Shown here piece by piece: positions 36 through 25,548 of a stretch of 64,000 nt of DNA; positions within the stretch are counted from its first letter, which is position 1; every line of letters starts with the position of its first letter. Below the pieces are notes generated by a model. That model did not search any database. It worked only from the letters and a program-made list of their open reading frames with translations, and was not told the DNA's origin. Position numbers and translations under genes: made by a program. Origin of the DNA: Pseudomonadota bacterium (lineage in GTDB: Bacteria > Pseudomonadota > Gammaproteobacteria > Xanthomonadales > Rhodanobacteraceae); assembly GCA_029561145.1 (NCBI GenBank), contig JAKQJM010000057.1:1-64000 (forward strand), in the 5' to 3' direction.

Positions 36-2825
36 TCAGTCCAGGCGAGCCTTCAACGCATCCAGTTGCACGCGGGCAGGATGGGTTGGCAGGAGTTCGA
101 GGCCGAGTGCGGATTCCGCCCGGCCTGCATCGCTGACGGCGCCGTCAGGGTCGGCATGACGCAGGCGCCATTGCGCGCGCGCCAGCGTGACCTCGCCATA
201 GGCGAAGTGCCGGGTCAGAGCCAGGCGTTCGCACAGGGCGACGGCATGGTCGAGCAGGACGCCACCCTCGGCGTCGCGTCCTTGCGCGCGTCGCAGGTCG
301 GCGGCAACCGCGTAGCCGCGCGCGCCTTCCGAACACCCGAGTTGCTCGACGCTTTCGAGGCCGCGCGCGACCAGCGGTTCGGCAGTGGCGACGTTGCCTG
401 CTTCGAGCCTGATCCGTGCCTCGAGGAAATCGATGCGCGCCGGCGCCATGACCTGCGTGTCGCTGCGCGATGCCTGCCATCGACGGAATGCATCGATGTG
501 CGCCTGAGCCGCGGTCCGATCACCCCTGGCCAGCGCCACCCGCGCGAGGAGCAGATCCGGCTCGTGGCCTACCGCCGTGTCGGCGGCAATGTTGCGCCCG
601 ATGCGCTGTGCGGTCAGCGCGGTTTCGAGTGCGCCGTCGAGATCACCGCGGTTGCGCAACAGGTTGCTCAGGTTGATCCAGGTGTTGAGTCCGCTGCCCG
701 CTTCATCAACGCCGGTCACGTGGTCGGCCGCGAGTTTGCTCCGCAACAACGGCTCGGCTTCGCGCAGCTTGCCGACGCGGATCAGCAGGTTGGCGAGATT
801 GTTCCTGGACTGGCCGAGGGCAGGATGGTCGGCACCGAAAACGCGCGTGAGGATGTCTAGGCTTTCGCGCGAAACGGCTTCGGATTCGTCGGTCTTCTGC
901 AGGTGGGTCAGGCACAGCGAAAGGCCGGACAAGGCGCCGGCGGTTTCCATGTGGTTGTCGCCGTAAACCTCGCGCGCGAGCACCACCGATTTGCGCAGCA
1001 GGGGTTCGCCGCGTTCGCAATCGTCCGCCCGCCATAGCGCGATGCCGAAGCCATTGTTGGTTTGCGCGAGCAATGCGGTTGGCGCATCTGCGTGCGCTTC
1101 CTCGATAGCAAGCGCGCGCGCGTAGTCGGCGACGCCTTCGGTTTCCTGGCCGTTGGCGGCGCGTTGCTCGCCGCGTGCGACCAGGGTGCGCGCTACATCG
1201 AGTCCATCCGGATCACGCGCGGTCTGCAGGGCGAGTGCGGCATCGAAGTCGGCCATTGCCTCGGCAGACCTGCCGAGTCGGCCACGCAGTTCGCCGCGAC
1301 GCGACAGTGCGTTGGCATAGGCTTCGTCGTTGCGCGGCGACTGCTTCTGCAACAGGTCGACCGCTTCGTCGACCAGTTCGAGGGCGCGATCCTCGCGTTG
1401 CAGGGCGAGATGGATGTCACCGAGCACGGTCAGCATCTCGACCCGCGTTTCGGGTGATTGCGATCCTTCGGCCAATGCGGCACTGCGGCCGCGCTCGAGC
1501 AGGGTTGCGGTGTCGGGCAACTGGTCGGGAGGCAGGCCTGCACCCCCTGCCTCGAACACCGAGACGACGAAGTCACGCACGGCCTCCGCGCGCGCGAGCG
1601 CGGCCTTTGCACGATCCGCTTCCCGCGTCGCGCGCGCCTCCTCGCTGCGGGCGGCGTGCGCCTGCCAAAGCGCAACACCCGCGCTGACCAGAATCGCGAC
1701 AAGGAAAAGTGCGGTGGTCATCACGCTGCCGCGATGGCGCCGTACGAACTTGCGCGCCGCATAGAGTGTCGACGGAGGATGCGCCTGCACGGGGCGGGCC
1801 GACTGGAAACGCACGATGTCATCGTGCAGTTCCGCCGCATCGCGATAACGGCGTTGCGGATCGCTGTCGCACGCCTTGGTCGCGATCCAGACCAGTTCCA
1901 CCGGCAGGGTGAAGCGGGTAGGCAGGGGTTGCGTCTGCACGCCGCCAGGATCGGGTCGCGGAGTCTGGCCGGTCATCAACTGGCGCAGGATCACGCCGAG
2001 CGCGTAGACGTCGGTGGCCAGGGTGATCGGCCCGTTGCTGATCTGCTCGGGCGCGCCGTAGCCCGGTGTCATCATCGGCACCGCCGTGCGATCCGGGCTG
2101 TCCTCCTCGTCGAGCAGGCGAGCAATGCCGAAGTCGAGCACTTTCACCGAGCCGTCCATGGTCACGAGCACGTTGGCGGGCTTGAGATCGCGATGCACGA
2201 TCAGTGCGCGGTGTGCGCTCGACACGATCGCGCACAGGCGGCCGAACAGGACCAGGCGTTTCTCCAGGTCGGGCGCGCGGTGTTCGCACCACGCGTCGAT
2301 AGGCTCGCCATCGACCCGTTCCATGATCAGGTACGGCACGCCTTCGGCACTGACCCCGCCGTCGATCAGGCGCGCGATACCGGGATCGTCGAGACGCACC
2401 AGGATGTCGCGTTCGCGGCGGAAGCGACGGTACTCATGCGGATCGTGGATGCCACGGCGCAACAATTTCACGGCGACGGTTTGCGCGAAATCGCCTTCGA
2501 TCCGCTCGCCCTCGTACACCGTGCCCTGGCCGCCGCTGCCGATCAGCTTCTTCAGTTGAAAGGCGCCGTAGCGCATGCCGAGCAGCCGGGCAGGATTGAA
2601 GTCCTCGTCGCGCTTGTCCATGTTGCCGATCAGGTCGACCACGTCATGGCTCAGCAGCGCGCCCACGTTGGCGTCGGCGGCAAGCATGAGTCCGAGCTCG
2701 ATGCGCGTGGTGCTGTCGAGGTCCTCGCCGTCGAACCAGGTCTCGCGTTCGTCGGGGCTCATGTCCGCACAGCGCTCGAACAGGGCGCGCAGGCGGGTGT
2801 AGGAATCTTGATTGAAGGACTTCAT
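36..2825 (-). CDS. Ser/Thr protein kinase with C-terminal TPR repeats (module A)
   Basis: GSGGQGTVYEG, VAVKLL, HRDLKPANVLV and DFGIARLL kinase motifs; KFVRRHR then a TM segment (MTTALFLVAILVSAGVALWQA); TPR-like C-terminal half. Confidence 0.93.
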   Translation of the reverse strand: MKSFNQDSYTRLRALFERCADMSPDERETWFDGEDLDSTTRIELGLMLAADANVGALLSHDVVDLIGNMDKRDEDFNPARLLGMRYGAFQLKKLIGSGGQGTVYEGERIEGDFAQTVAVKLLRRGIHDPHEYRRFRRERDILVRLDDPGIARLIDGGVSAEGVPYLIMERVDGEPIDAWCEHRAPDLEKRLVLFGRLCAIVSSAHRALIVHRDLKPANVLVTMDGSVKVLDFGIARLLDEEDSPDRTAVPMMTPGYGAPEQISNGPITLATDVYALGVILRQLMTGQTPRPDPGGVQTQPLPTRFTLPVELVWIATKACDSDPQRRYRDAAELHDDIVRFQSARPVQAHPPSTLYAARKFVRRHRGSVMTTALFLVAILVSAGVALWQAHAARSEEARATREADRAKAALARAEAVRDFVVSVFEAGGAGLPPDQLPDTATLLERGRSAALAEGSQSPETRVEMLTVLGDIHLALQREDRALELVDEAVDLLQKQSPRNDEAYANALSRRGELRGRLGRSAEAMADFDAALALQTARDPDGLDVARTLVARGEQRAANGQETEGVADYARALAIEEAHADAPTALLAQTNNGFGIALWRADDCERGEPLLRKSVVLAREVYGDNHMETAGALSGLSLCLTHLQKTDESEAVSRESLDILTRVFGADHPALGQSRNNLANLLIRVGKLREAEPLLRSKLAADHVTGVDEAGSGLNTWINLSNLLRNRGDLDGALETALTAQRIGRNIAADTAVGHEPDLLLARVALARGDRTAAQAHIDAFRRWQASRSDTQVMAPARIDFLEARIRLEAGNVATAEPLVARGLESVEQLGCSEGARGYAVAADLRRAQGRDAEGGVLLDHAVALCERLALTRHFAYGEVTLARAQWRLRHADPDGAVSDAGRAESALGLELLPTHPARVQLDALKARLD

Positions 2826-2867
2826 GGCCCTACTCGACGCGGAAGCGGGTCGAACACCGACACGACC

Positions 2868-3410
2868 TCATCCTTCGAGTTCGCTCTGCAGCCAGGCGCG
2901 CGCAACACGCCAGTCGCGGTTCACGGTGCGATCGGACACGCCCAGCAGCTCCGCTATCCGCTCCAGTCCGAGGCCGGCAAAGAAATGCAGTTCGACGATG
3001 TTCGCCGCACGCGGATCGAGTCGGGCGAGGCGCGAGAGTGCCGAATCGAGCTCGATCGCCTGGCTGGCATCGACGCGCACGCCATCGATCGCTTCGGAAT
3101 CCAGCGCCGTGCGCTGAAGATCGCCGCCATGCTTGGGACGCAGGTAGCGACGTGCGTGGTCGATCAGCAGGTTGCGCATGGCACGCGCCGCGTAGCCGAA
3201 ATAATCCTGCACGGCGACCGCACTCTCGCGCTTGCAGATGTCGAGATACACCTCATGCACGAGCGCGGTCGTGTTGAACGTGTTGCTGGCATCAACGCGG
3301 CGTCGCTCGCGATGCGCGACGCGACGCAGGCGCTGATAGACCTCCTCGAATCCTGGCTCCTGCAAGTGTTCCGGCGCGGCTTCATCCACGGCACGTTCCT
3401 CCCGGCGCAA
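2868..3410 (-). CDS. ECF-type RNA polymerase sigma factor, TIGR02999-like (module A)
   Basis: NTTALVHEVYL sigma2 motif; VELHFFAGLGLERIAELLGVSDRTVNRDWRVARAWL sigma4 motif. True start may be GTG near 3389, preceded by GGGAGG. Confidence 0.9.
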   Translation of the reverse strand: MRREERAVDEAAPEHLQEPGFEEVYQRLRRVAHRERRRVDASNTFNTTALVHEVYLDICKRESAVAVQDYFGYAARAMRNLLIDHARRYLRPKHGGDLQRTALDSEAIDGVRVDASQAIELDSALSRLARLDPRAANIVELHFFAGLGLERIAELLGVSDRTVNRDWRVARAWLQSELEG

Positions 3411-3476: not shown

Positions 3477-3504
3477 TGTCGGTACTGGCCGCGCATCCGC
3501 GTCC
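3477..3504 (+). promoter_or_regulatory. Putative ECF-type promoter TGTCGGT-N16-CGTCC upstream of beta-helix gene 1
   Basis: TGTCGGT at 3477-3483, 16-nt spacer, CGTCC at 3500-3504; the same motif and spacing upstream of two paralogs. Confidence 0.45.
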
Positions 3505-3534
3505 TTGGGCTCGAACCTGCCAACGAGACCCGCC

Positions 3535-6500
3535 ATGCGCCGCCTTTCCGTTTTCCTGATTGCCGCAACTGCCTGTTTCGCTACACCGGCCTTTGCCAAC
3601 ATCTACACCGTAGGCAGCGGTGCCGGATGTACTCACGCCACGATACAGGCCGCGATCGACGCCGCCGATGCCGCGAGCAGCAATGTGGCCGATGAAATCC
3701 GGCTCAGCGGCGGGTCCTTCGTCAACCAGCAGTTGACCGTGCAGATCGAGGCCGCGCACGGTGCGCTCACCCTGGTCGGGGGGTTCGCGACCTGTGCCAG
3801 CGCGACCCCGACAGCGGGCGCACGTGCGGTGATTTCCGGTCAGAGCCCGGTGACCAGCAATCCCGTGATGCGCGTGGCGGACACGGCCGACCTGACCTTG
3901 CGCAACCTCGAAATCCGCCAGGGCAACGGTGGCGGCGGACTCGCGCTCGAGACCGGAGGTGGCACGGCAACGAGCTGGATCACCTTGATCGATACCTTCG
4001 TCGTCAACAACCTCGGAACCCAGGGTGGCGGAGTCCGCGTGGCCAACTTCAATCCCGCGACGCCGCCCGATCGCTTGCGTGTGGATCTGCTCGGCACCAC
4101 CAAGGTGGCCTACAACTTCGGCCAGGTGCGTGGTGGCGGGATGTACTGCCTCAACGCCAGGCTGAATGTCGAAGAAAACGCCGTGATCCGCGAAAACACG
4201 GCGGGCGTTGCGGGCTTTGCCGGAAATCTCGATGGCGGTGGCATCTATGCCGACAACTGTCATCTCAATATCACTTCGCAGGGCGACCCCGGCACAGGTG
4301 CGTTGTATTTCAATACCGCGGCGATGGCCGGCCGCGGCGGCGGACTCTACATTACCGGGTCGCAGGCGCAGGCCGACTTCTACCCGGTGGCCTCAGGCAT
4401 GTCGTTGCTCGTCTCTTTGAATCGGGCACGCGAAGGCGGCGGCATCGCGGCGGCCGGCGGCGCACAGGTACGGATGTTTGGCGAAACCGTACTGATCGAC
4501 AACATGGCCGATGTGCGCGGAGGAGCGCTGTGGGTCGCGCCGGGCGGGGCGGCCGGCGTGGATACGCGCGTGCTCGTGCAAAGCGCGATCGTCGGTGCGC
4601 CCGAAGACGCCGTGGCCTGCATCGTGCCCGAACTCTGCGCGCAGATCGTTCTCAATCGAGCCGAGGAGACCAGCGGCAATCCCGCTCCGGGTGCAGTGCT
4701 GGCGGTGGCCGATGGTTCGCCTGGAACCGCGCACGTGCAGTTGCGCGGTGCGCGCATCACCGCGAACGAGGGTTACAGCCTGATCACGCAGGGACTCGCG
4801 GACAGCCAGGTGGTGCTCGACGGCAGCCTGGTTGCCGACAACCTCATCGGCGGCGGCTTCGGTGCCTTCAGCGCCATCGGCACCGACAATGCGCTGGTCG
4901 TATCGGCAAGCACGATCACGGACAACATCTACACCGGGACCGGCTCGACAATATTTGGTACGCCGGTGACCTGCGATCCGCTCGATGACGAGGTCGGCAT
5001 CCATCTGCGCCGCAGCATCATCTGGGAGCCGGGCCACAGCCTGTTGTTCACCCTGTTCGATCCGCCGCAGGCCAGCTGTTTCACCCACCTGATCGCCAAT
5101 GATTTCGGCTGGTTGGGCGCTGCACCTGATCGCGTCGTTGCCGACCCGGCATTCGAGAACGCGGCCGCCGGGATCTACCGGCCCGGAGCAACTTCGCCCG
5201 CGCTCGACTTCGCACCGGCACATGCCACCGATGCCACGCTCGACCAGGGCGCCCGCGTGATCAACCTGCCCACCATCGCCGATCGCCTTGGTCCTCAGGA
5301 TCTCGGCGCCTATGAGCGTACTTTCTCGCCCACCGTGACCGCCAGCGTGGCAACCAGTGGCGGCACCGCCAACCCGGGCACGCAAAGCGTGCTGTTCGGC
5401 GGAGCGGCGCATGTCTCGGTGATTCCGAGCGGCAACTGGCACGCGGTCAGCTTGCCGGGGGGGAATTGCCCGCAAGGTACATGGGACCAGCACATCTACA
5501 CGACGGGTCCGATCACGGCCGATTGCGGCGTCGTGTTCTCGTTCATCCACGAGACCAGCATCGCGCTGAGCGCCAGCGCCAACCCGAGCGTGTACGGCCA
5601 GAACGTGACGTTTACCGCTACCCTGGTGGGAGCGGTCACACCCATCGGCAGCGTCACGTTTCGTGATGGCCCGAACGTATTGGGCAGCGTACCGATCAGT
5701 GGCATCGCCGCCAGCTTCTCGACCAGCACGCTGGAGCCGGGGACGCACGCGATCACCGCGCAATACGCGGGCGATGCACTCAACACGCCAGCCACCTCGG
5801 CGGTGCTCGATCCGATCGTCAACCGTGCTGCCACGGCCACGACGATTGCGCCGATTTCCACCATTCGCTTTGGCCAGAGCGCGACCGTCACGGCGACGGT
5901 CGCGGCGGCTCCGCCTGGCAACGGCACGCCAGGCGGCACGATCACGGTGGCCAGCGGCCCGGCCAGTTGCACGATCACCTTGCCGGCGACGAGCTGTGCG
6001 CTGACACCGACTGAATCCAGCGGCAGCTTGAGCGTGACCGCCAGCTATTCAGGCGACGCGCGATTCCAGGCCAGCAGCGGCACGCAAGGTCTGCAGGTGA
6101 TTGCGCAGTATCTCGGAGGCACGCTGAGTGGAGTCACCGCGTCAGGACTGGTGTTGCGGCTCGGCATCAACGGCGAGCCCGCCCAGATCAGCGCGATAGC
6201 AGTCGGCGCGACCAGCTTCGCGTTCCCCGCTGCGGTTCCGCTCGGTGCGAACTACGTCGTGACGGTGATGGCCCACCCTGCCGGATTGTTCTGCGAAGTC
6301 GGCAACGGCAGTGGCGTCATGCCAGCCGACGATGTCGGCAACGTCGCGATCGCCTGTTCGAATGGGCCGCACGCGGTGATTTCAGTAGCACTCGATGATG
6401 GAATCATCCACGCCCGCTACGGGCAGACCCTGAGCTACACGGCAACCCTGCGCAACGTCGGCAATGCGGCGACCAGCAGTGTCCCCGTGGCCGGTACCGC

Positions 6501-6765
6501 CAATGCCGCGCTCAATGCCGCGACCCTGGCCTGGACTTGCGTCGCGCAAGCCGGCGCGAGTTGCGGAGGTGGCGGAAGCGGTGCGCTCAACGACAGCGTG
6601 AACCTGCCGGTCGGCGGACAGGTGACCTACACGATCAGCGTGCCGGTGCGCACGACCACGGCGGAAAGCGTGGCCCTTTTCCGGATCAACGCCAACGACG
6701 ACGAGGCGAGCGCCAGTGACGCCGACATCCTCGTTCTGTTTCGCAATGGATTCGATCCGAACTGA
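3535..6765 (+). CDS. Secreted choice-of-anchor Q/right-handed beta-helix-like protein with Ig-like repeats
   Basis: Signal peptide MRRLSVFLIAATACFATPAFA; IYTVGSGAGCTHATIQAA; repeated GGG beta-helix coils; DLGAYE; Ig-like repeats; tail ADILVLFRNGFDPN. The 3418 start in the track is upstream of the likely start. Confidence 0.85.
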   Translation: MRRLSVFLIAATACFATPAFANIYTVGSGAGCTHATIQAAIDAADAASSNVADEIRLSGGSFVNQQLTVQIEAAHGALTLVGGFATCASATPTAGARAVISGQSPVTSNPVMRVADTADLTLRNLEIRQGNGGGGLALETGGGTATSWITLIDTFVVNNLGTQGGGVRVANFNPATPPDRLRVDLLGTTKVAYNFGQVRGGGMYCLNARLNVEENAVIRENTAGVAGFAGNLDGGGIYADNCHLNITSQGDPGTGALYFNTAAMAGRGGGLYITGSQAQADFYPVASGMSLLVSLNRAREGGGIAAAGGAQVRMFGETVLIDNMADVRGGALWVAPGGAAGVDTRVLVQSAIVGAPEDAVACIVPELCAQIVLNRAEETSGNPAPGAVLAVADGSPGTAHVQLRGARITANEGYSLITQGLADSQVVLDGSLVADNLIGGGFGAFSAIGTDNALVVSASTITDNIYTGTGSTIFGTPVTCDPLDDEVGIHLRRSIIWEPGHSLLFTLFDPPQASCFTHLIANDFGWLGAAPDRVVADPAFENAAAGIYRPGATSPALDFAPAHATDATLDQGARVINLPTIADRLGPQDLGAYERTFSPTVTASVATSGGTANPGTQSVLFGGAAHVSVIPSGNWHAVSLPGGNCPQGTWDQHIYTTGPITADCGVVFSFIHETSIALSASANPSVYGQNVTFTATLVGAVTPIGSVTFRDGPNVLGSVPISGIAASFSTSTLEPGTHAITAQYAGDALNTPATSAVLDPIVNRAATATTIAPISTIRFGQSATVTATVAAAPPGNGTPGGTITVASGPASCTITLPATSCALTPTESSGSLSVTASYSGDARFQASSGTQGLQVIAQYLGGTLSGVTASGLVLRLGINGEPAQISAIAVGATSFAFPAAVPLGANYVVTVMAHPAGLFCEVGNGSGVMPADDVGNVAIACSNGPHAVISVALDDGIIHARYGQTLSYTATLRNVGNAATSSVPVAGTANAALNAATLAWTCVAQAGASCGGGGSGALNDSVNLPVGGQVTYTISVPVRTTTAESVALFRINANDDEASASDADILVLFRNGFDPN

Positions 6766-6788
6766 GCGCGTGCCGCGACATTGCGCGC

Positions 6789-6816
6789 TGTCGGTGTTTG
6801 CGGTCCGGGCGCGTCC
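6789..6816 (+). promoter_or_regulatory. Putative ECF-type promoter TGTCGGT-N16-CGTCC upstream of beta-helix gene 2
   Basis: TGTCGGT at 6789-6795, 16-nt spacer, CGTCC at 6812-6816. Confidence 0.45.
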
Positions 6817-6850
6817 TTGTCGGCAGGAAACATCAAACGAGGGCAGCAAC

Positions 6851-8620
6851 ATGATTCGCTTCGCTTCCACGATTGTGGCGCTCGCCGGCCTGCTGTCGGC
6901 CGCGCCGGCGGCTGCGGCCATCTACCGGGTCGGCATCGGCGCGGGTTGCACGCATGCATCGATCCAGGGGGCCGTCGGCGCGGCTTTTTCCAGTGCCGAG
7001 GCCGATGTGATACGCATCAGCCAGACCCAGAGCTACACCCAGCAATCGATCCTGATCGATCAGGTGCAAGGCGCGCTCGTGCTCGCTGGCGGCTTTGCCA
7101 CCTGCCAGAGCAATGCGCCCACGCCCGGCGCGCGCACACAGTTGAACGGCAACGGCAATCTTTCGGTCGTGCGCATCAACGAGACCCGCACGGTCGAGCT
7201 GGATGACCTTGATATCCAGGGTGGCCGAGGCACCGGTAGCGGCGGCGGTGTTTACGTGACTGGAAGCGACGGCGCCGTACTGGCGCTCGGCAACACCCTG
7301 GTGCGCAGCAACCAGGGCGCTTCCGGTGGTGGCATCGCGGTGTTCAATACCGATGCCGACAGCGGGGTTGGCGCGATGCAATTGCTGCTGTTCGGCAGCT
7401 CGGCGGCTCTGAACAATTCGGCCATCATCGGCGGCGGCATCCAGTGCAGCGGCGCAACGGTCATGTTGTTCGATCAATCGCACGTTTCGTTCAATGCGAG
7501 CAGCGACAACGGCGGTGGCATTCATGCGCAGAATTGCCGGGTGGAACTGCGCTCGAGCGGCGTCAATGGCATCGTCCTGCTGTCGAACACCGCGAGCGGC
7601 AACGGCGGCGGGATGTATCTGGGCGGTGCGCGCAGCCAGGGCGATATCTACACGATCGATCCGTACAAGCCGGCGCGGATCTACAACAACAGCGCGCGCC
7701 AGGGCGGAGCTCTTGCCGTGGCCGACGATGCGCAACTGCGCCTGTTCGAAACCAGCATCGAGGAGAACACGGCCAGCGCAGGCGGGGGCGCCATCCTGCT
7801 GCAGCCTGGCGCGCACGCGACCGGTGATACGCGATTCCTGATGCAGGGAACGATCGCCGGTGCGCCCGCCGCCGCGGTCGAGTGCGCCGATCCCGAGGCC
7901 TGCAACAGGGTCTACGGCAATCGCGCGATGAATGGCAGTACGCCGCAACCAGGCAGCGCGATTCTCGTCGACGCAGCTGCGTCGACTTCCGCGCACGCGA
8001 CCTTTCGCGGCACGCGTCTGGAAATGAACAATGGCGAGACCTTGAGCCGGCATCTCGATGCACGTGGCCAGGTGTCGTTTGACGGTGCCCTGCTGGTCAG
8101 GAACATCGCGTCGGGTGTCCTGCTTGACGCCCGGGGTGCGGCGAACTCGCTGGTGGTCTCGGCCAGCACGATTGCGTGGAACAACATGATGTCCAACGGG
8201 CGGGGCGTGATCGCCGGCAGTGGCAGCTGCGACATCGACAACGACTATCTCGGCACGCACCTCTATCGCAGCATCATCTGGCAGGAGACGCACCCCTTGC
8301 TGGAGGCCATTGGTGGCATCCAGCCGGTGTGCTTCCGCTACCTGATCGGCAATGATTTCAGCGGCTTCCCGGCTTCAAGCGATCGCCTCGTCGCCAATCC
8401 GTCGCTGGCCAACCCGGTCGGCGCAAACTTCGAGCTCGCGCTGGATTCCCCGGCCCTGGATTTCGCGCCGGCGCAACCCATCAACTCGACGCGCAACGGC
8501 GGGCCGCGCGTGTTCGACATGGACGATCACGCCAATCGGCTCGGGCCACAGGACCTGGGTGCGTACGAATACGTCACCGACCTCATATTCGCGTCGGGTT
8601 TCGGTGCGGAGGACGAATGA
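6851..8620 (+). CDS. Secreted choice-of-anchor Q/right-handed beta-helix-like protein (tandem paralog 2)
   Basis: Signal peptide MIRFASTIVALAGLLSAAPAAAA; IYRVGIGAGCTHASIQGA; LGPQDLGAYEY; tail TDLIFASGFGAEDE. Confidence 0.87.
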   Translation: MIRFASTIVALAGLLSAAPAAAAIYRVGIGAGCTHASIQGAVGAAFSSAEADVIRISQTQSYTQQSILIDQVQGALVLAGGFATCQSNAPTPGARTQLNGNGNLSVVRINETRTVELDDLDIQGGRGTGSGGGVYVTGSDGAVLALGNTLVRSNQGASGGGIAVFNTDADSGVGAMQLLLFGSSAALNNSAIIGGGIQCSGATVMLFDQSHVSFNASSDNGGGIHAQNCRVELRSSGVNGIVLLSNTASGNGGGMYLGGARSQGDIYTIDPYKPARIYNNSARQGGALAVADDAQLRLFETSIEENTASAGGGAILLQPGAHATGDTRFLMQGTIAGAPAAAVECADPEACNRVYGNRAMNGSTPQPGSAILVDAAASTSAHATFRGTRLEMNNGETLSRHLDARGQVSFDGALLVRNIASGVLLDARGAANSLVVSASTIAWNNMMSNGRGVIAGSGSCDIDNDYLGTHLYRSIIWQETHPLLEAIGGIQPVCFRYLIGNDFSGFPASSDRLVANPSLANPVGANFELALDSPALDFAPAQPINSTRNGGPRVFDMDDHANRLGPQDLGAYEYVTDLIFASGFGAEDE

Positions 8621-8790
8621 CGCACGAACACGCGCGGGCCAGGCCCTGGATCCGATCGGGCGTGTCGTGTGCGTCGAGTCGAAGTCGGCGCAAGTCGCTG
8701 CCGTCATCCAGAGTCGATTCTTCGCGCCTCGATGCCGGCGTGCGCCGTCGCGCCTTCGGCGCATCACGCCGCTGGTTTCTCGCACGCGGA

Positions 8791-8818
8791 TGTCGGTAGG
8801 ACCGACCCAAGCGCGTCC
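8791..8818 (+). promoter_or_regulatory. Putative ECF-type promoter TGTCGGT-N16-CGTCC upstream of beta-helix gene 3
   Basis: TGTCGGT at 8791-8797, 16-nt spacer, CGTCC at 8814-8818. Confidence 0.45.
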
Positions 8819-8852
8819 TTGTGGGCAGGGAACATCAAACGAGGACGGAAAC

Positions 8853-11029: not shown

Positions 11030-11581
11030 ATGACAGAGATCACCGAACTGATTGGACAGGCACGGGCTGGCGAGCAGGCAGCGTCCGAGCGCGTGTTCGC
11101 CTTGCTCTACGACGAACTGCGTCGCCTGGCCGCCGGACAATTGCGCGGCGAAGTGGCGATGCGGGCGACCTCGCTGGTCCATGAGGCGTATCTCAAGCTG
11201 GCCAATCACGGTGCGCTCGAAGTCAACGATCGCGGGCATTTTTTTGCCGTATCGGCACGCGTCATGCGCCAGATCGTGATCGACCATGTGCGCGCACGGG
11301 CGGCACTGCGCCGCGGCGGTGGCATCCATTTCGCGCCTCTCGACACGACGGCCATGCAGGCCGCCGCGCAGGATCGCGGCGCGGAGGTGCTGGCCCTCGA
11401 TGCTGCGCTGGGGCGTCTCGGCGAAGTCGACGCGCCGTTGGCGAACCTGGTCGAGATGCGTTTCTACGCCGGACTGGAGCTGGCCGAGATCGCCGTCGTG
11501 CAGGATCGTTCGGAGCGCTCGCTGAAACGGGATTGGCGTCGTGCCCGGGCCTTCCTGCAGCGCGAGATGACGACCGTCTAG
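11030..11581 (+). CDS. ECF-type RNA polymerase sigma factor, TIGR02999-like (module B)
   Basis: MRATSLVHEAYLKL; NLVEMRFYAGLELAEIAVVQDRSERSLKRDWRRARAFL. Confidence 0.92.
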   Translation: MTEITELIGQARAGEQAASERVFALLYDELRRLAAGQLRGEVAMRATSLVHEAYLKLANHGALEVNDRGHFFAVSARVMRQIVIDHVRARAALRRGGGIHFAPLDTTAMQAAAQDRGAEVLALDAALGRLGEVDAPLANLVEMRFYAGLELAEIAVVQDRSERSLKRDWRRARAFLQREMTTV

Positions 11582-11583
11582 CG

Positions 11584-14490
11584 ATGTCGACGCGATCCGA
11601 ACGCTGGTCGCTCGTTTCGACGCTGTTCGATGAATTGGTCGAACTCGACGAGTCTCGTCGTGCCGAACGCCTGAGCGTGATTGCGGCGACCGACGAAGCC
11701 CTGGCCGATGAAGTGCGCGCGCTGCTCGCTGCCGACGAAGCGGATAGTGGCCTGCTTGATGGCGATGCAGCAGGTGCGCTTCCCGCGGTACTGGATCGAG
11801 ACCGGGATGCCGCGCCTGCGGACGGCATGGCAGGGCCGTATCGACTGCTGCGGATGCTCGGCGAGGGTGGCATGGGCGTGGTTTGGCTTGGCGAGCGCAT
11901 CGATGGCGCGTACGAGCAGCAGGTCGCGGTCAAGGTGCTCAAGCGCGGCATGGACACGAACGCGATCCTGCGACGTTTCCTGCAGGAACGGCGCATCCTC
12001 GCGCGCCTGCATCACCCGCACATCGTGAAGCTCGTGGACGGTGGCATGACGACGGATGGCCGCCCGTTCTATGTCATGGAACATGTCGATGGCCTGTCGA
12101 TCACGGCGCACGCCAGGCAGGGTGCGCTGGGCGTGCGCGCGCGAGTGCACCTGATCGCCAAGGTCGCTGATGCGGTCGCGCAGGCGCACACGCAATTGGT
12201 CGTGCACCGTGACCTGAAACCCTCGAACGTACTCGTCGACGCTGCGGGCGAACCACGCGTGCTCGACTTCGGCATCGCCAAGCTCATCGAGGAAAGCGGC
12301 GAGCAGACCCTGACCGGCACCGCCATGCGTGTGCTGTCCCCGGTCTACGCGGCACCTGAGCAGATCCTCGGCGAGGCGATCGGCACTTCGACCGACGTCT
12401 ATGCGCTCGGCCTGATGCTCTGCGAGTTGCTGACCGGACGACTGCCGCGCCAGCGTCGTGGCGCGACGCCCGCGCAACTGGCGCTCGATGCCAGGCAGGA
12501 GGTCGCCGATCGCGCGAGCACGCTCGTCGCCAGGCTCAATGCGGAACAACTGCGCGAGGTGTATGGCGAGGAAGTCGACGCGCATCAACTCGTCCGCAGT
12601 CTTTCCGGCGATCTCGATCTGATCATCGCCACGGCCCTGCAGCGCGAACCGGCAAGGCGCTATGCGACGGCAGCCGCATTCGCCGACGACCTGCGCCGAT
12701 GGCTTGACGGGCGACCGATCGCGGCACGCTCCGATTCCGCGGCCTACCGCCTCAACAAGTTCGTGCGTCGCCATCGGGTCGGTGTCGCCGCGTCTGCGAT
12801 CATCGCTCTTTCACTGGTGGCGGGCCTCGTTGCGGCGTTGTGGCAGGCGAACATTGCCCGCAACGAGGCGCATCGTGCCGATGCCGAGCGCGCCAATGCA
12901 GAGCGCCAATTGGCGCGCAGCGAGCGGGTCAAGGAGTTCATCCTGACCCTTTTCCGCGAGCAGGATCCGATCAGCCGGGCCAGCGCGAAGGCGCGCACCC
13001 CGTCAACACTGATCCGCAATGGCGTGAGCGCTGTCGAGGCGAACCTCTCGGGCGAGCCCGAATTGCAGGCGCAGCTGTTCAAGGATCTCGGTGAAATCCA
13101 GGTCAGTCTCGATGACCGGGAGGCGGCGCAGGCGACCCTCGAGCGCGCCTGGAAAATGCATTCGGCGCTGAGCGGTGCCAACAGCATCGCTGCGGCCGAA
13201 GCCCTAGCGGCCTATGCGGATGCCGTGTACGCCTTCGGTGACGTGGCGAAAGCCGAGCCGTTGCTGCGTGATGCCCTCAGGATATTGCGAGACGCCGGTG
13301 CGGGCGACATGCCACGAACGGCTCTCGCCGAATCGACGCTCGCAAACATTGAATTGGTGGCGGGGCGCAACGCCGAGGCCGAGGCGCTTGCGCGTCACGG
13401 CGTTGATGTGTTTCGCGCCATCTACGGCGAATCGGATGTTCGGCTTGCATCGCGCCTCGGCGTACTCGGAAAAGTCCAGCAGGAGGCGGGGCGTTATCCG
13501 GATGCCCTGGAAAGTTACCGGAAAGCCGTTGCAATTGTCGCCAGGAGCGATGGCGAGGAGCACGTGCGCACGGCGATGCTGCGGGCGAACATCGGCGATG
13601 TCCTGCGCGTGCAGCGCAAGTACGGCGAAGCATTGAAACAATACGAGACGGCCCTGCGCGTTGAACGCGCGGCGCTTCCTGCCGATCACCTGTATGTGGG
13701 CGGCACCCTGCTCCGTCTCGGCGACCTGCAGCGACGCATGGGCAATTACGATGCGGCGGAGCAAAGCTTCAAGGAGTCGCTCGCGATCCTCGGCAAGACG
13801 CCTTCGGGCCAGTATGCGCAGGCGTTGCAGACCTATGCTTCACTGGCCCGAGCCCAGGGCAAGTTTGATGTTGCCGTCGAACGTTATCGAAGGTCGTTCG
13901 AGGTTTTTCACGCAACGACAGGCGACAGCGTCTACACGTGGCTGACCGCATTGCTCGAGGTTGCGGCCCTTGCTGATGCCGGGCGCTATGCGGAAGCCGA
14001 TGTGCGCGTCGAGGAAGCAGTCGCTGCGCTCGTTCGATTGGCACCCGGCGACAGCTACAACACCACGTATGCGGCCTCGGTGATCGGCAGCTTGCGCCAG
14101 GCGGAAGGTCGCCACCTCGATGCGATCCAGAACTTCCGCCGCGCCCTTGAAGGCGTCACGAAAATCTACGAGGCGGATCATGTCGAAATCGCACAGGTGC
14201 GCGTCGCGCTGGCTTCGAGTCTGTTGGCCAGCCAGGATCCCGACGCCCTCGACGAGGCCGAATCGCTGATCAAGTCGGCCTTCGATGCATTGGGGCGAAA
14301 TCGTGAAGCCGAGAACGAGGCGACGCTCGGAATGGCTTATCTCGAACGCGGACGACTTGATCTCGCCCGCGGCAATCGAGACGCTGCGCGTGCAGCGGTT
14401 GGCGAAGCGCTGGCGCGACTTGATGCACCGGAATCCCTGCCCAGGCGACGCCAGGCTGAAGCACTCGCGCGCAAGCTCGCTGCGCGCTGA
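11584..14490 (+). CDS. Ser/Thr protein kinase with C-terminal TPR repeats (module B)
   Basis: GEGGMGVVWLGE, VAVKVLKRG, HRDLKPSNVLV, DFGIAKL; KFVRRHR plus TM; TPR-like C-terminal half; starts 2 nt after the sigma stop. Confidence 0.93.
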   Translation: MSTRSERWSLVSTLFDELVELDESRRAERLSVIAATDEALADEVRALLAADEADSGLLDGDAAGALPAVLDRDRDAAPADGMAGPYRLLRMLGEGGMGVVWLGERIDGAYEQQVAVKVLKRGMDTNAILRRFLQERRILARLHHPHIVKLVDGGMTTDGRPFYVMEHVDGLSITAHARQGALGVRARVHLIAKVADAVAQAHTQLVVHRDLKPSNVLVDAAGEPRVLDFGIAKLIEESGEQTLTGTAMRVLSPVYAAPEQILGEAIGTSTDVYALGLMLCELLTGRLPRQRRGATPAQLALDARQEVADRASTLVARLNAEQLREVYGEEVDAHQLVRSLSGDLDLIIATALQREPARRYATAAAFADDLRRWLDGRPIAARSDSAAYRLNKFVRRHRVGVAASAIIALSLVAGLVAALWQANIARNEAHRADAERANAERQLARSERVKEFILTLFREQDPISRASAKARTPSTLIRNGVSAVEANLSGEPELQAQLFKDLGEIQVSLDDREAAQATLERAWKMHSALSGANSIAAAEALAAYADAVYAFGDVAKAEPLLRDALRILRDAGAGDMPRTALAESTLANIELVAGRNAEAEALARHGVDVFRAIYGESDVRLASRLGVLGKVQQEAGRYPDALESYRKAVAIVARSDGEEHVRTAMLRANIGDVLRVQRKYGEALKQYETALRVERAALPADHLYVGGTLLRLGDLQRRMGNYDAAEQSFKESLAILGKTPSGQYAQALQTYASLARAQGKFDVAVERYRRSFEVFHATTGDSVYTWLTALLEVAALADAGRYAEADVRVEEAVAALVRLAPGDSYNTTYAASVIGSLRQAEGRHLDAIQNFRRALEGVTKIYEADHVEIAQVRVALASSLLASQDPDALDEAESLIKSAFDALGRNREAENEATLGMAYLERGRLDLARGNRDAARAAVGEALARLDAPESLPRRRQAEALARKLAAR

Positions 14491-14924: not shown

Positions 14925-17285
14925 ATGGCCATGTTCCCGTTTCCGCTGATCCGCACACTGATCGGTATCCTCATGGCGTGCATGGCATTGCCTGCCGCTG
15001 CGTCCGACTACGCCATCGTCCAGCAGCTCAGTGCAGTCGCGTCCGGCCAGGGTGAAGCACACGGCTTTTTCGGCTGGTCGGTCGCCGTCGATGGCGATCT
15101 CGCGGTCGCGGCAGAACTGCGCCAGTCCGCCGGCCTGCCGGCGCGCATCCGCACCTACGCGCGTAGCGGTTCGAGCTGGCTCTACCAGTCCGGGAAGGAC
15201 ATCGAGATCCCGGGAGATTCCGCCGCAAAACTCTCGTTGAACGACGGCACGCTGGCGCTCACGGCGTTCTCATCCACGACGTCTCGCGGCTATGTTCAGA
15301 TCTTGCGCTGGTCGGGCTCGAACTGGATCCAGGAAGCGGGCATCTCATCGACGACGGCGTTCTTCGACGCGGTAGCCACCAACAGCCAGTTTGCGGTCGC
15401 CGGAGAATGGAGCTACGACGGCGCGGCCGGCACCAACCAGGGCCGGATCCGGATCCTGCGACGTCAAGCCAACGGAAGCTGGAACTCGCAGACCCTGACG
15501 CCGACCACGCCACAGGCGGGCGCGCTGTTCGGCTGGTCGGTGGCAATCGTCTCCGGTGCGATCGTGGTCGGCGCGCCGTACGAAACGGTCACCGACGGCG
15601 CCGGCACACACACGCGTGCCGGCGCCGCCTATGTCTACGAGCTGACCATCGACACGTGGAATCAAGTCGCGCGGCTGGTCGAGGCGCCAAGTGGCAGCCA
15701 TGCACAGAACCAGTTCGGCTATGTCGTCGCGATCAGCGGGGCGGATCCCGGGACGCCGGACCGGCTACTGGTCGGTCGGGCCTCGAATGCGTCGAACGGG
15801 CGTATCGGCATCGTGCGCGGTTATCGGCGCGTGGCGGGCACCTGGACACCGGGCCTGACAATTTCCGCGTCGGTGCCGAGCACCGCGGACCAGTATGGTT
15901 GCTCGTTGGCCATGGATGGTGACTGGGCGGTGATCGGCGTTTGCGCCAGCGCCAGCGCGGGCATCAACGCCGGCGCAGTCATCGCGGCGCATTTCAACAG
16001 CACTTTCACATCCGTGAGTGGAATGGTCCAGCACACCGACCCGCAAGGAAGTGCGGACGAGTTCCTCGGCAGCAGTGTCGCGATCGATCGGGATGGCCCG
16101 ACCTTGATGGTGGGCAATATCAGCGCCGACTTGTACGGCAACGCAGACCAGGGCGTCGTACTGATCTCGCGCAGCCCGATCAACGTGGCGCCGTCGCTCG
16201 TGCGTGCGATCGATCTCGGCCAGGGCCTCACCGATGCGCGCGCTTCCGAAGTCGCGGCAGACGGTGACACGATGATCATCGGTGCGCGCGGCGAGAATGT
16301 CGGCATCCAGCACGCGCGCGGCGCCGCCTACGTCTACCGGCGTCAAACCAGCGGCCTGTATGAACTCGAATCCCGTTTGCTCGCTCCGGATGGCACGGCG
16401 TTCGACATGTTCGGTACCCGCGTCGCCCTGAAAGGTGACGTCGCCCTGGTCAGTGCGACGGGCTACTCGACGCAGGGACAGGAAGCGGCTGGCGCGGTGT
16501 ACGCGTTTCATCGCGAGGGCAGCGTGTGGACGCTTGAAGCGCAATTCCTGCCGCCGGCACCCGTGGAAAATGGCTCGTTCGGGCTGGGCCTTGCTTTCGA
16601 TGGCGGCAGTGCGTTGATTGGCGAGTTCGACGCGAACACCGCGGTGATCGAGCGCTCGGCCGGCGGCGTGTGGACACCGATGCAGGATCTTCCGCATCGC
16701 GGCTGGAACGTGCAGGTGGACGGCACCACGGCGATGCTCGGCGACTCGCTCGCCAACGGCAACATCGGCGAAGTCGCAATCTACTCGAGGGTTGGCGGAA
16801 CCTGGCAGCCTGCCGGCACCCTGTCCGGGTTCAATGCCAATCAGGGTTTTGGTACCGATGTTGCGCTTGATGGCGATCACGCGGCAGTCGCCAGCAGCGC
16901 TGCCACCGCGCCGATGCAGGTCTATCGCCGCAATGGCACGACGTGGTTGCCCGAAGCGAGCCTGCTGCCAAATGATGCGACGGCGGACACCCAATGCTAT
17001 CGCGCGGCGTTGCGCGGGCCGACGTTGGCAATGGGTTGCTGGAATCCCTCGGGCAGCCGAGAGGGCGCGGCCTATGTATTCGAGAGAAACGGAACAAGCT
17101 GGTCGCAAGCGCAGAAGCTGACCTTGTCCGGTGCGAAGCCTTTCGATCAGTTCGGTGTCGACGTCTCGTTCGGTGACAATGATTCGCTGCTCGTCGGCGC
17201 TTACCGCCGCGACATCGATTTCATGGACCAGGGCGCGGTGTACGTGTTTCGGGACGATGTCCTGTTCGAGGACGGCTTCGACTAG
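14925..17285 (+). CDS. Secreted FG-GAP/beta-propeller-like repeat protein
   Basis: Signal peptide MAMFPFPLIRTLIGILMACMALPAAA; repeated FGWSVAVDGDLAV / FGTRVALKGDVALV blades; tail RDDVLFEDGFD. Confidence 0.82.
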   Translation: MAMFPFPLIRTLIGILMACMALPAAASDYAIVQQLSAVASGQGEAHGFFGWSVAVDGDLAVAAELRQSAGLPARIRTYARSGSSWLYQSGKDIEIPGDSAAKLSLNDGTLALTAFSSTTSRGYVQILRWSGSNWIQEAGISSTTAFFDAVATNSQFAVAGEWSYDGAAGTNQGRIRILRRQANGSWNSQTLTPTTPQAGALFGWSVAIVSGAIVVGAPYETVTDGAGTHTRAGAAYVYELTIDTWNQVARLVEAPSGSHAQNQFGYVVAISGADPGTPDRLLVGRASNASNGRIGIVRGYRRVAGTWTPGLTISASVPSTADQYGCSLAMDGDWAVIGVCASASAGINAGAVIAAHFNSTFTSVSGMVQHTDPQGSADEFLGSSVAIDRDGPTLMVGNISADLYGNADQGVVLISRSPINVAPSLVRAIDLGQGLTDARASEVAADGDTMIIGARGENVGIQHARGAAYVYRRQTSGLYELESRLLAPDGTAFDMFGTRVALKGDVALVSATGYSTQGQEAAGAVYAFHREGSVWTLEAQFLPPAPVENGSFGLGLAFDGGSALIGEFDANTAVIERSAGGVWTPMQDLPHRGWNVQVDGTTAMLGDSLANGNIGEVAIYSRVGGTWQPAGTLSGFNANQGFGTDVALDGDHAAVASSAATAPMQVYRRNGTTWLPEASLLPNDATADTQCYRAALRGPTLAMGCWNPSGSREGAAYVFERNGTSWSQAQKLTLSGAKPFDQFGVDVSFGDNDSLLVGAYRRDIDFMDQGAVYVFRDDVLFEDGFD

Positions 17286-21702: not shown

Positions 21703-22088
21703 GGCGAGTCGCAGAGCATCGACATGAACGCGTCGCCGCTCACGCGCGCGCCGCCACCCGAGTTCACGGCGATGTTGTTGTCGATGTGCGTGTTGCCGAG
21801 CACCACCGTCCGGGCGAATCCGCCATTGCCATTGAAGTGGATGCCGCCGCCATCGGTATTCGCCGCGCGGTCGATGATGTCGTTGTCCGTGCACCGGTTG
21901 TCGATGGCGGTTTTGCCGATATGGCGCGCGTAGAAGATCGGCAGGCGATCGGCCCGTGCAACCTCGATACACGGCACGGTCAGTACGACGCCAATCGACG
22001 ACGACGCGGAACGACGTATGGATACTTGCATCGCGAGATCCTCGGGACATGCCCATGAGCGGGCTGTTCCGGGAAACGTCGTTTTCAC
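21699..22088 (-). pseudogene. Short beta-helix-like ORF, probable remnant of a choice-of-anchor paralog
   Basis: DIIDRAANTDGGGIHFNGNGGFARTVVLGNTHIDNNIAVNSGGGARVSG resembles beta-helix coils but lacks the rest of the fold; stop overlaps the start of the 21702 ORF (ATGA). Confidence 0.4.
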
Positions 22089-22124
22089 GCCGGTTTGGAC
22101 ATCGCTTGCTGCCGACGTGATCGA

Positions 22125-24956
22125 TCAGGGCTTTGCGATCGTATCGGCGATCCCCGCCACGAAGGCCTGCAACGTTGTGGAGAGGCGTCCTTGCGCGGCC
22201 GCGCTCTCGCCGAGGGCCTGGTCGATCAGGACGCGCGCGGCGCGGTCGTCGCCACGTCGATGGAGGATCCCGGCGAGGCCTGCGCGCGCTTCAATGCGAT
22301 CGGGCGAGACGTGGTCCTGCGGTGTCGACACATTGTCCAGCGCCGCTTTGAAGGCATCGGCCGCGCGCTCGTCCTCGCCGAGTTCCAGCAAGGACCGGCC
22401 GAGACCGTTCAGACTGACCACGCGCCACGCCGTCGGTGCGTCGGGCAATTTCTCTTCGTAGGTGCGGATCGATTCGCCGAACGTGGCGACCGCGGCTCTG
22501 GCGTCGCCGGATGCCCGTTGCAAGGCACCGAGCTTTTCGAGCGCCGAACAAATCTGGTCGTAATCGGGTTCGGGCAAGCCGCGCAGGGTCTCGATCGCCG
22601 TGCGCACGAGCTGCATGCCCTGGTCCAGATCGCCGCTGCGACCGACGCTGACACCGAGGTTCGAGCGGTAGATCGCGCTGCGGCGCTGGTTGTCCGGAAT
22701 CCCTTCGGAGATCGCGAGTGCCGCGCGATAGTGTTCGATTGCTTGCGGGAACTTGTTGTCCATCATGTAGGTGAAGCCGAGCGTGTTCTGGTTCGTCGCC
22801 AAGCCGGGATGCGCGGGCCCGAGCGTGGCCGCGTCCATCGCGATGATGCGTTGGCCAAGGGTTTCGGCCTCGTCGAACGCACGCGTGTCGATGAGGACCT
22901 GGCGCAGCGTATCGAGTGCATCGCTGCGCCGCACATGCGGATCCGGAACGCTGGCTTCGACGATGGCGAGCGAGTCGCGCGCCAGCGCTTCGGCACGGTC
23001 GAGCTGGCCGAGGCGCCGATAGGCCCGCGACAGTCCCTGTTCGTTGTCGGCGATATCGATGTGCGGCCCGACGTGGAGCACCCGCTGCGCGCGCAAGGCA
23101 TCCTCCATGATCGCAATCGCCGCTGCATCCTGCTGGAATCCAGCCAGAACATTCCCGCGCGCGAGCAGTGCGTTGATTCGCGTTGCCTCGGTGCAGGCAT
23201 CGCCGACGCATGTCTTGATCGCGGCTTCCGATTCGGTCATTGCGCGTTCGCGTTCGAAACGGTCGACCGCGAGCAGTGCCGAGGCGGCAAGCAGGCTGGA
23301 ATGCAGATCAGGATCGACGTGACCGTCGTCCTGCAGCAATTGATCGAACAGCGCGCGAGCTTCCTTTCTCTTTCCGGCATCGACCAACGCGCGGGCCAGG
23401 TTCAACCCGGCATTCAGGGTGATCGCGTCCGAACGGCCAAACCGCGTCGTCGCATCCCTGAAATTGGCATCGAGGATGCCGATGCTCTCGTCGACTTTCC
23501 CTTGCGTACGCAGCACATTGCCCAATGCGCCGAGCAGTTCGATGCGAACGTTTGGATACAGCGACGAGGATCGCCTGGCATCATCGATCGAAATGCGCAC
23601 CACATCGACCACCGAGGGCGGGGCAAGGCGAGGGCCGGCCGGCTCGGCGGCGCTGAATACACGCAACAGGAAGTCGCGCACGCTGGTTGCACGCTGCGCC
23701 TCGGCGCGCGCGACTCCGCCTTGCCAGAGCGCGATACCGAGCGAGGTCAGGATGGCGAGTACGAAGAGCGCCGTGGTCAGCACTCCGCCGCGATGCCGTC
23801 CGACGAACTTGCGCGCGCGATAGAGACGCGATGGCGGGTGCGCAGCAACCGGTTGTCCGGCCAGGTGACGCGCGATGTCGTCGGCGAGCGCTCCGGCCGA
23901 GGCGTAGCGCCGCTCGGGCTCGAGCGCCGTCGCGCGGAGCACGATGGTGTCGAGATCGCCGCGCAGTTTCCGGCGCAGTCCCGAGCTCGACAAGGCGCGC
24001 GCCTGCTCGACCATGTCTTCGGTGATTTGCGATGAAGGAGTGCGCAAATCGCCCGGCTCGCGCCTCTGCCCGGTGATCAGTTCGCCGAGCACGACACCGA
24101 GTGCGTAGACGTCGGTCGCGGTGGTGATCTGTCCACGCGCGAATTGCTCGGGTGCCGCGTAGGCCGGCGTCATCGGGGTGTGCTGCGTCGACGATTCCTC
24201 GTCTTCGAGGTCGCCCTCGCCATCGAGCAGTTTGGCGATGCCGAAATCGAGCAGCTTGACATCGCCGGCCGCTGTCACGAGCACGTTCGAGGGCTTGAGG
24301 TCGCGGTGCACGATAAGGGCCCGATGTGCCGATTCGACCGCTCGGCAAACCTCGATGAACAATTCGAGCCGATCACGCAGGCCGAGTCGCTGCGCACGCG
24401 CATGCTCGACGATGCTTTGTCCTTCGATCAGTTCCAGCGCGATGTAGGGGATGCCGCTGTCGGTGATCCCGCCTTCGATCAGGCGGGCAATGCCGGGATG
24501 CTGGAGTTGGGCCAGCGCGCGACGTTCATCGCGAAATCGGCGTTGCTCATCGGCGCTGTGCAGGCCACGACGGAGCAGCTTCAGCGCAACACGCTGGCGC
24601 ACCCCGGCCTGTTCGCGTTCGGCGCGAAAGACGATCGAGGAACCGCCCTCGCCGAGCGTGTCGATCAGGGTGAACGGACCGATGCAGGTGCCGTGCGGCG
24701 GCAGGTCTCCGGCCGGGTCGGCAATACGCTCGAGCAACTGGTCGAACGGCTCCCCGAGCAACTCGGCATCGGCGTTCTGGTCGGCCGCCAGCATGCGTTC
24801 GACGTTCAGGCGCCGATCCGGGTCGGCGCAGCGGGCTTCGAGGAAAGCCCGGCGCTCGGCAGGCGCCAGGACGAGCGCCTGTTCGAACAGGTCCCGCAGG
24901 CTAGGCAAGGATTCGCTCACGAGGATTCTCCGATCGGCCGGCTGCGCGCTCGACAC
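22125..24956 (-). CDS. Ser/Thr protein kinase with C-terminal TPR repeats (module C)
   Basis: GEGGSSIVFRAERE, VALKLLRRG, HRDLKPSNVLV, DFGIAKLL; KFVGRHR plus TM; TPR-like C-terminal half. Confidence 0.93.
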   Translation of the reverse strand: MSSAQPADRRILVSESLPSLRDLFEQALVLAPAERRAFLEARCADPDRRLNVERMLAADQNADAELLGEPFDQLLERIADPAGDLPPHGTCIGPFTLIDTLGEGGSSIVFRAEREQAGVRQRVALKLLRRGLHSADEQRRFRDERRALAQLQHPGIARLIEGGITDSGIPYIALELIEGQSIVEHARAQRLGLRDRLELFIEVCRAVESAHRALIVHRDLKPSNVLVTAAGDVKLLDFGIAKLLDGEGDLEDEESSTQHTPMTPAYAAPEQFARGQITTATDVYALGVVLGELITGQRREPGDLRTPSSQITEDMVEQARALSSSGLRRKLRGDLDTIVLRATALEPERRYASAGALADDIARHLAGQPVAAHPPSRLYRARKFVGRHRGGVLTTALFVLAILTSLGIALWQGGVARAEAQRATSVRDFLLRVFSAAEPAGPRLAPPSVVDVVRISIDDARRSSSLYPNVRIELLGALGNVLRTQGKVDESIGILDANFRDATTRFGRSDAITLNAGLNLARALVDAGKRKEARALFDQLLQDDGHVDPDLHSSLLAASALLAVDRFERERAMTESEAAIKTCVGDACTEATRINALLARGNVLAGFQQDAAAIAIMEDALRAQRVLHVGPHIDIADNEQGLSRAYRRLGQLDRAEALARDSLAIVEASVPDPHVRRSDALDTLRQVLIDTRAFDEAETLGQRIIAMDAATLGPAHPGLATNQNTLGFTYMMDNKFPQAIEHYRAALAISEGIPDNQRRSAIYRSNLGVSVGRSGDLDQGMQLVRTAIETLRGLPEPDYDQICSALEKLGALQRASGDARAAVATFGESIRTYEEKLPDAPTAWRVVSLNGLGRSLLELGEDERAADAFKAALDNVSTPQDHVSPDRIEARAGLAGILHRRGDDRAARVLIDQALGESAAAQGRLSTTLQAFVAGIADTIAKP

Positions 24957-24987
24957 GAAGAACGTCGAATGCGGTGATACCCGGACA

Positions 24988-25548
24988 TCAATCGATGGCG
25001 GCGTGCAGAAATGCGCTCGCGTAGCGCCAATCGCGATCGACCGTGCGCCGGGTCACCTTGAGCAGCTCGGCGATCTGGTCTGCCGACAGCCCGGCGAAAT
25101 AGCGCAGTTCGACCACTCTCGCGGCGCGTGCGTCGGTCAGTTCGAGCCGGTTGAGCGCCTCGTCGAGAGCGAGTACCTGTTCGGCGCTGTCGATGGCTGG
25201 CACGGAATCGGCGTTGGCGGTGAATGTGACCCGCATCCATTCGCCGCCGGCCTTGTGGCGCATGCGCGCGCGGGCGTGGTCGATCAGGACATGGCGCATG
25301 GCGCGTGCCGCATAGGCGAAGAACTGAGCCGAATGTTCGAACGACAGGTTGCGTGCGGATTCGAATCTGAGCCAGGCCTCGTGCACGAGGGCCGTGGTAT
25401 CGAGCGTGTTGCGCGCACCGCGTCCAAGCTGGCGGCTGGCCATGGCCTTCAGGCGATCGTAGACCGCATCGAACGAAACCGCCGGCGACGCGGCTTCGGG
25501 GGCATCGCTGGCATGCGGGTAGGGCACGGCGGCGGAATTCCTCGGCAA
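24988..25548 (-). CDS. ECF-type RNA polymerase sigma factor, TIGR02999-like (module C)
   Basis: LDTTALVHEAWLRF; RVVELRYFAGLSADQIAELLKVTRRTVDRDWRYASAFL. Confidence 0.9.
   Translation of the reverse strand: MPRNSAAVPYPHASDAPEAASPAVSFDAVYDRLKAMASRQLGRGARNTLDTTALVHEAWLRFESARNLSFEHSAQFFAYAARAMRHVLIDHARARMRHKAGGEWMRVTFTANADSVPAIDSAEQVLALDEALNRLELTDARAARVVELRYFAGLSADQIAELLKVTRRTVDRDWRYASAFLHAAID

Follow-up and report, generated by a model that had tools for sequence, protein, structure and literature searches.

A 64,000-nucleotide (nt) stretch from a Pseudomonadota bacterium of the family Rhodanobacteraceae (assembly GCA_029561145.1, contig JAKQJM010000057.1, positions 1 to 64,000), referred to here as the window, carries an extracytoplasmic function (ECF) sigma factor gene (sigma A), a protein kinase gene (kinase A) and three tandem beta-helix genes. 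Four copies of a bipartite element, the dyad TGTCGGT-N16-CGTC, lie within 6 kb at this locus and very probably represent the -35/-10 promoter of a kinase-activated sigma A, which would drive kinase A and the beta-helix genes. Sigma A matches TIGR02999 with 164.1 bits (cut-off 126.15) and PF07638 with 140.9 bits. The kinase A gene adjoins it, starting 42 bases past the sigma A stop codon. In region 2.2 of sigma A, NTTA occupies the position where the acidic DAED motif would stand and is invariant in seven aligned orthologues. According to two reports, a threonine-containing motif, QTTA or STTA, replaces DAED in phosphorylated ECF43 sigma factors (PMC13147305, PMC8999054). From the TIGR02999 match, the kinase neighbor and the NTTA motif, we infer that sigma A belongs to ECF43.

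The beta-helix genes encode proteins that appear to be secreted, as judged from signal-like N termini by eye, and that end in an [IL]F..GF tail. An AlphaFold2 model of the gene 3 product has a mean predicted local distance difference test score (pLDDT) of 80.4 and a predicted template modelling score (pTM) of 0.83. Its top Foldseek matches are beta-helix proteins such as lacto-N-biosidase LnbX, YbhC, PL6 lyases and Rhombotarget A, at low TM-scores, and they support the predicted fold class of the product, not a function. A C-terminal [IL]F..GF[DE] tail is shared by almost every beta-helix protein in the family (window 6851-10625 and homologues) and is possibly a sorting signal.

The dyad precedes all three beta-helix genes and the kinase gene. 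An earlier interpretation of the same DNA made without database searches (the sequence-only reading) had claimed three exact copies of TGTCGGT-N16-CGTCC before the tandem beta-helix genes, and a pattern search of the window located all of them (Table 1). Only 0.04 such matches are expected in the window by chance and three or more were found in 0 of 100 shuffled windows. The distance of 35-39 nt to the ATG given in that reading is correct when the count begins at the first base of CGTCC; the gaps between CGTC and ATG are 31, 35 and 35 nt. With the last base relaxed, a fourth copy is found in the gap between sigma A and kinase A, so that the earlier tally was right for the beta-helix genes and incomplete for the locus. 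Identical halves followed by TTG are likewise a property of the three window copies and not a general rule: the fifth base (C) of CGTCC and the TTG vary among relatives, which carry CGTCGATG, CGTCGAGG and others, and the core is therefore TGTCGGT-N16-CGTC. No dyad of this type was found upstream of sigma genes in the window. Genome-wide statements rest on pattern searches of the home genome (3.6 Mb in 149 contigs), where only two more TGTCGGT-N16-CGTC sites occur, both remote from kinase or beta-helix-type genes. The sequence-only reading had also proposed a genome scan. Run as TGTCGGTN14-18CGTCC, it recovered the three copies before the beta-helix genes, while its eight other matches, most of them within long reading frames and only two with a 16-nt spacer, stand before no comparable genes. 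Apart from the sigma A loci, the dyad shows little genome-wide excess over a reversed-pattern control, so the regulon looks local.

Table 1. Genes and dyad copies of the sigma A locus, followed by other features of the window (positions and strands refer to the window).
Feature	Position	Strand	Basis
Kinase A, Hanks-type Ser/Thr kinase domain, hydrophobic stretch (by eye), TPR repeats	36..2825	-	PF00069 and TPR matches
Fourth dyad, TGTCGGT-N16-CGTC, in the 42-base sigma A-kinase A gap, ending 10 nt upstream of the kinase ATG	2836..2862	-	Relaxed-pattern match; kept before orthologous kinases
Sigma A, ECF sigma factor of the kinase-linked TIGR02999/PF07638 type; region 2.2 NTTA; region 4.2 SDRTVNRDWRVARAWL	2868..3410	-	TIGR02999 and PF07638 matches, sequence
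Dyad TGTCGGT-N16-CGTC, then CTTG, 31 nt upstream of the beta-helix gene 1 ATG	3477..3503	+	Exact match
Beta-helix gene 1, Big_3_5 immunoglobulin (Ig)-like repeats, C-terminal ...LFRNGFDPN	3535..6765	+	Paralogue of gene 3 (40% identity)
Dyad TGTCGGT-N16-CGTC, then CTTG, 35 nt upstream of the beta-helix gene 2 ATG	6789..6815	+	Exact match
Beta-helix gene 2, C-terminal ...IFASGFGAEDE	6851..8620	+	62% identical to gene 3
Dyad TGTCGGT-N16-CGTC, then CTTG, 35 nt upstream of the beta-helix gene 3 ATG	8791..8817	+	Exact match
Beta-helix gene 3, C-terminal ...RIFSDGFEDGNQ, predicted right-handed beta-helix	8853..10625	+	AlphaFold2, Foldseek
Sigma B and kinase	11030..14490	+	
FG-GAP repeat protein with GF tail	14925..17285		
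Second sigma C-module dyad, TGTCCAA-N16-CGTT, just past the kinase C gene, before the secreted-protein region	22075..22101	-	Pattern match
Sigma C (24988-25548) and kinase C (22125-24956)	22125..25548	-	
Dyad TGTCCGG-N16-CGTT between sigma C and kinase C	24961..24987	-	Pattern match

The dyad and its spacing are conserved in relatives. In four genomes with a sigma A orthologue (G087, G122, G110 and G121) it stands before both kinase and beta-helix genes, taking the variant form TGTCGGC at the G087 kinase. It also precedes the kinase on contig 3 of G111 and a beta-helix gene in G074, and G115 carries TGTCGTC and TGTCGTT forms. The spacers of these relatives' dyads differ in sequence and are constantly 16 nt long, and the distance from CGTC down to the kinase ATG is 9-10 nt throughout the sigma A clade. 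The dyad is present in 16 of 16 hand-chosen sigma A-clade regions (at most 4 in shuffles), a count that does not represent independent evidence because most of these regions were picked after the motif had been seen. Independent evidence comes from two unselected scans. The first covered the DNA directly 3' of the stop codon of 47 Rhodanobacteraceae TIGR02999 sigma genes, taken without selection by motif: TGTC-N19-CGT occurs in 21 of these gaps, no other spacing between 10 and 29 gives more than 3, and the top four-letter dyads reach 13 versus 5-6 in shuffles. The second found the same pattern upstream of 27 of 63 beta-helix genes, with at most 5 at any other spacing. In sigma-downstream gaps of further genera, GTCGCA-N17-GTT, corresponding to the 16-nt geometry with a GGTT -10 element, is present in 17 of 20 cases and in at most one at other spacings; its letters were read off the gaps before the spacing profile and many of the 20 sigma factors are close orthologues, while the spacing contrast stands. 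A fixed spacer of about 16 nt between -35 and -10 elements upstream of a gene characterizes ECF-type promoters, and one spacing is sharply preferred in all three scans. Sister dyads at identical spacing, TGTCGCA-N16-CGTT and nGTCGCA-N16-GGTT, are found in ECF43/TIGR02999 sigma-kinase gaps across Rhodanobacteraceae. Sigma-downstream gaps in other genera of the family (loci L294-L309 and L124) contain nGTCGCA-N16-GGTTTAT, a third promoter form.

The letters of the dyad follow region 4.2 of the accompanying sigma factor. N-type region 4.2, S[DE]RT[VI]NRDWR[VA]ARAWL, is partnered by TGTCG[GT][TC] and CGTC, and D-type region 4.2, RRT[VI]DRDWR[FY]ARAFL, mostly by TGTCGCA and CGTT. When the kinase-gap site of each module is compared with its beta-helix site, the two share the -10 type in all 12 modules and the -35 triplet in 9 of them (permutation p 0.00014, which is indicative only because the underlying table is hand-made, includes ambiguous sites and ignores relatedness). 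Contig 67 of G122 is the clearest natural experiment on module specificity, with N- and D-type modules located within 16 kb of each other and each beta-helix gene carrying the dyad of its own sigma factor. Both module types are also present on one contig of G087, where the sites likewise match their own sigma. Judging from these sequences, parallel ECF43 modules of one genome would be insulated from one another through different -35 and -10 letters.

Several observations weigh against assigning the dyad to sigma A. The sigma-kinase gap of G074, a member of the sigma A clade, contains no dyad, one G111 beta-helix gene lacks it as well, and the G111:C303 site has one mismatch and was read by eye. 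Upstream of 36 of the 63 family beta-helix genes no TGTC-N19-CGT was found. In the permutation test, related modules count as independent cases, and the hand-compiled table behind it includes the one-mismatch G111 gap site and a site (G000:C105) whose downstream gene is unclear. Among 57 TIGR02999 sigma-downstream gaps from other phyla the dyad occurs in one, without enrichment, which rules out generality over all TIGR02999 sigma factors and marks the dyad as a family-level feature.

The comparative evidence, comprising conservation, fixed spacing and letters that track region 4.2, supports an ECF-type promoter as proposed in the sequence-only reading. That reading's guess of sigma A as the reader has also gained support: the dyad is linked to sigma A by the additional copy between the sigma A and kinase A genes, by its conservation in relatives and by the correspondence of the motif with region 4.2. 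It is improbable that the dyad is read instead by another ECF sigma factor, be it ECF41, ECF42 or a different TIGR02999 sigma. ECF42 promoters have a TGTCG-type -35 element. The home genome encodes one ECF42-type protein (PF20239) and 13 TIGR02999 sigma factors over the cut-off, 12 of them besides sigma A. However, of the seven motif-bearing relatives examined, ECF42 was found in G111 and G115 and not in G087, G122, G074, G110 and G121 (the G087, G074, G110 and G121 genomes being 99-100% complete), making ECF42 an unlikely reader. The nearest published motif found is the ECF41 promoter, TGTCACA-n16-CGTC, which resembles the dyad in layout, spacer, CGTC -10 element and TGTC start of the -35 element (PMC3426412). 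It differs in that the window -35 element ends in GGT instead of ACA and the window targets are not COE genes. The home genome yields 12 weak sigma matches to the ECF41 family TIGR02957, none over the cut-off and the best at 51.5 versus 323 bits, and all four window copies carry TGTCGGT, not TGTCACA; ECF41 was consequently rejected as reader. Against any other ECF sigma factor as reader, the sites are concentrated around sigma A and its orthologues, and the letters of other modules follow their own sigma.

Exact spacing and strong halves would also suit a repressor or activator contacting two major grooves, but such a regulator site is very unlikely: the two halves do not repeat each other in either direct or inverted orientation, the dyad letters follow sigma region 4.2, and the closeness to the ATG, the fixed 16-nt spacer and the CGTC or CGTT -10 element suit an ECF promoter (compare PMC3426412). 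It is scarcely credible that the similarity is a functionless relic of a recent duplication of upstream DNA. Beta-helix genes 2 and 3 are indeed paralogues and have 34 of 40 nt in common from 6 nt after CGTC onward, as is usual for paralogues, yet their spacers (7/16) and upstream DNA (14/60) are unrelated. When the four copies in the window are compared in all six pairs, the 11 letters of the halves are always identical, and matches number 4-10 across the 16-nt spacer and 13-26 across the 60 nt upstream, bearing out the earlier claim of differing spacers between identical halves. Beta-helix gene 1 and the kinase site have essentially only the halves in common, and the dyad is maintained in other genera. 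The sequence-only reading had regarded flanks as conserved as the halves as the mark of duplication; the flank comparison found upstream DNA and spacers to be unrelated, ruling out recent duplication as the cause.

The promoter reading centered on sigma A suggests a small self-reinforcing local circuit. Kinase A would sense an envelope or external signal and phosphorylate the NTTA threonine of sigma A, as suggested by its sequence and by the known pairs EcfP/PknT and EcfK/PknS. Phosphorylated sigma A would then join RNA polymerase, and the holoenzyme would transcribe the kinase gene from the site directly behind sigma A, together with the putatively secreted beta-helix genes. As no dyad is located before sigma A, the kinase would be the point of feedback. 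As a rule, autoregulated ECF promoters combine a local regulon with feedback on signalling genes. The predicted sigma A circuit is similarly local with feedback on signalling genes, and differs in the position of the site between sigma and kinase and in feedback acting on the activating kinase. ECF transcription usually starts several nt downstream of the -10 element, and with the kinase ATG 9-10 nt after CGTC, the kinase A mRNA may be leaderless, starting near the ATG. EcfP/PknT of Vibrio parahaemolyticus and EcfK/PknS of Xanthomonas citri are ECF43 sigma-kinase pairs that resemble sigma A and kinase A in combining a threonine-motif ECF sigma factor with an adjoining Hanks kinase containing transmembrane and TPR parts (PMC8999054, PMC13147305). 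These pairs are known to control polymyxin resistance and a type VI secretion system, whereas the output of sigma A apparently consists of the kinase and secreted beta-helix proteins. The searched parts of these two papers (PMC8999054, PMC13147305) yielded no promoter motif.

Further sigma-kinase modules are present in the window and beyond. Sigma C and kinase C form another ECF43 module with two dyads of the CGTT type (Table 1). The frame after kinase C looks broken, with out-of-frame beta-helix-like repeats followed by a short secreted protein, and the last frame of this secreted-protein region ends in a GF tail. Sigma B, which is also paired with a kinase, has a different region 4.2 (SERSLKRDWRRARAFL) and no TGTC-N19-CGT after the sigma gene; an FG-GAP repeat protein with a GF tail follows this pair. 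Elsewhere in the home genome, several TIGR02999 sigma genes have no dyad downstream (examples: C84, C141:193633, C17, C48, C97 and C62). On contig 66 of G046 (L057), six to seven beta-helix genes with GF-type tails stand in tandem, and no TGTC-N19-CGT dyad accompanies any of them; these genes would be under some other regulation.

On balance, we lean towards a wider view of Rhodanobacteraceae ECF43 sigma factors as many parallel, insulated phospho-sigma circuits. Each would use distinct promoter letters at the N16 spacing that co-evolve with region 4.2, would feed back on the kinase and not the sigma factor (by way of a leaderless kinase mRNA in the sigma A clade) and would have secreted beta-helix outputs. 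No ECF43 promoter motif was found in the literature covered, which is a partial selection with the main ECF classification paper outside it, and an earlier description is possible. ECF43 is a kinase-switched sigma group whose target promoters are undefined in the parts of that literature available to us. For this group the dyad supplies a concrete motif, along with predictions of a self-reinforcing loop and of a set of secreted targets, and the altered letters of the sister modules provide a natural means of testing how region 4.2 of the sigma factor determines promoter specificity.

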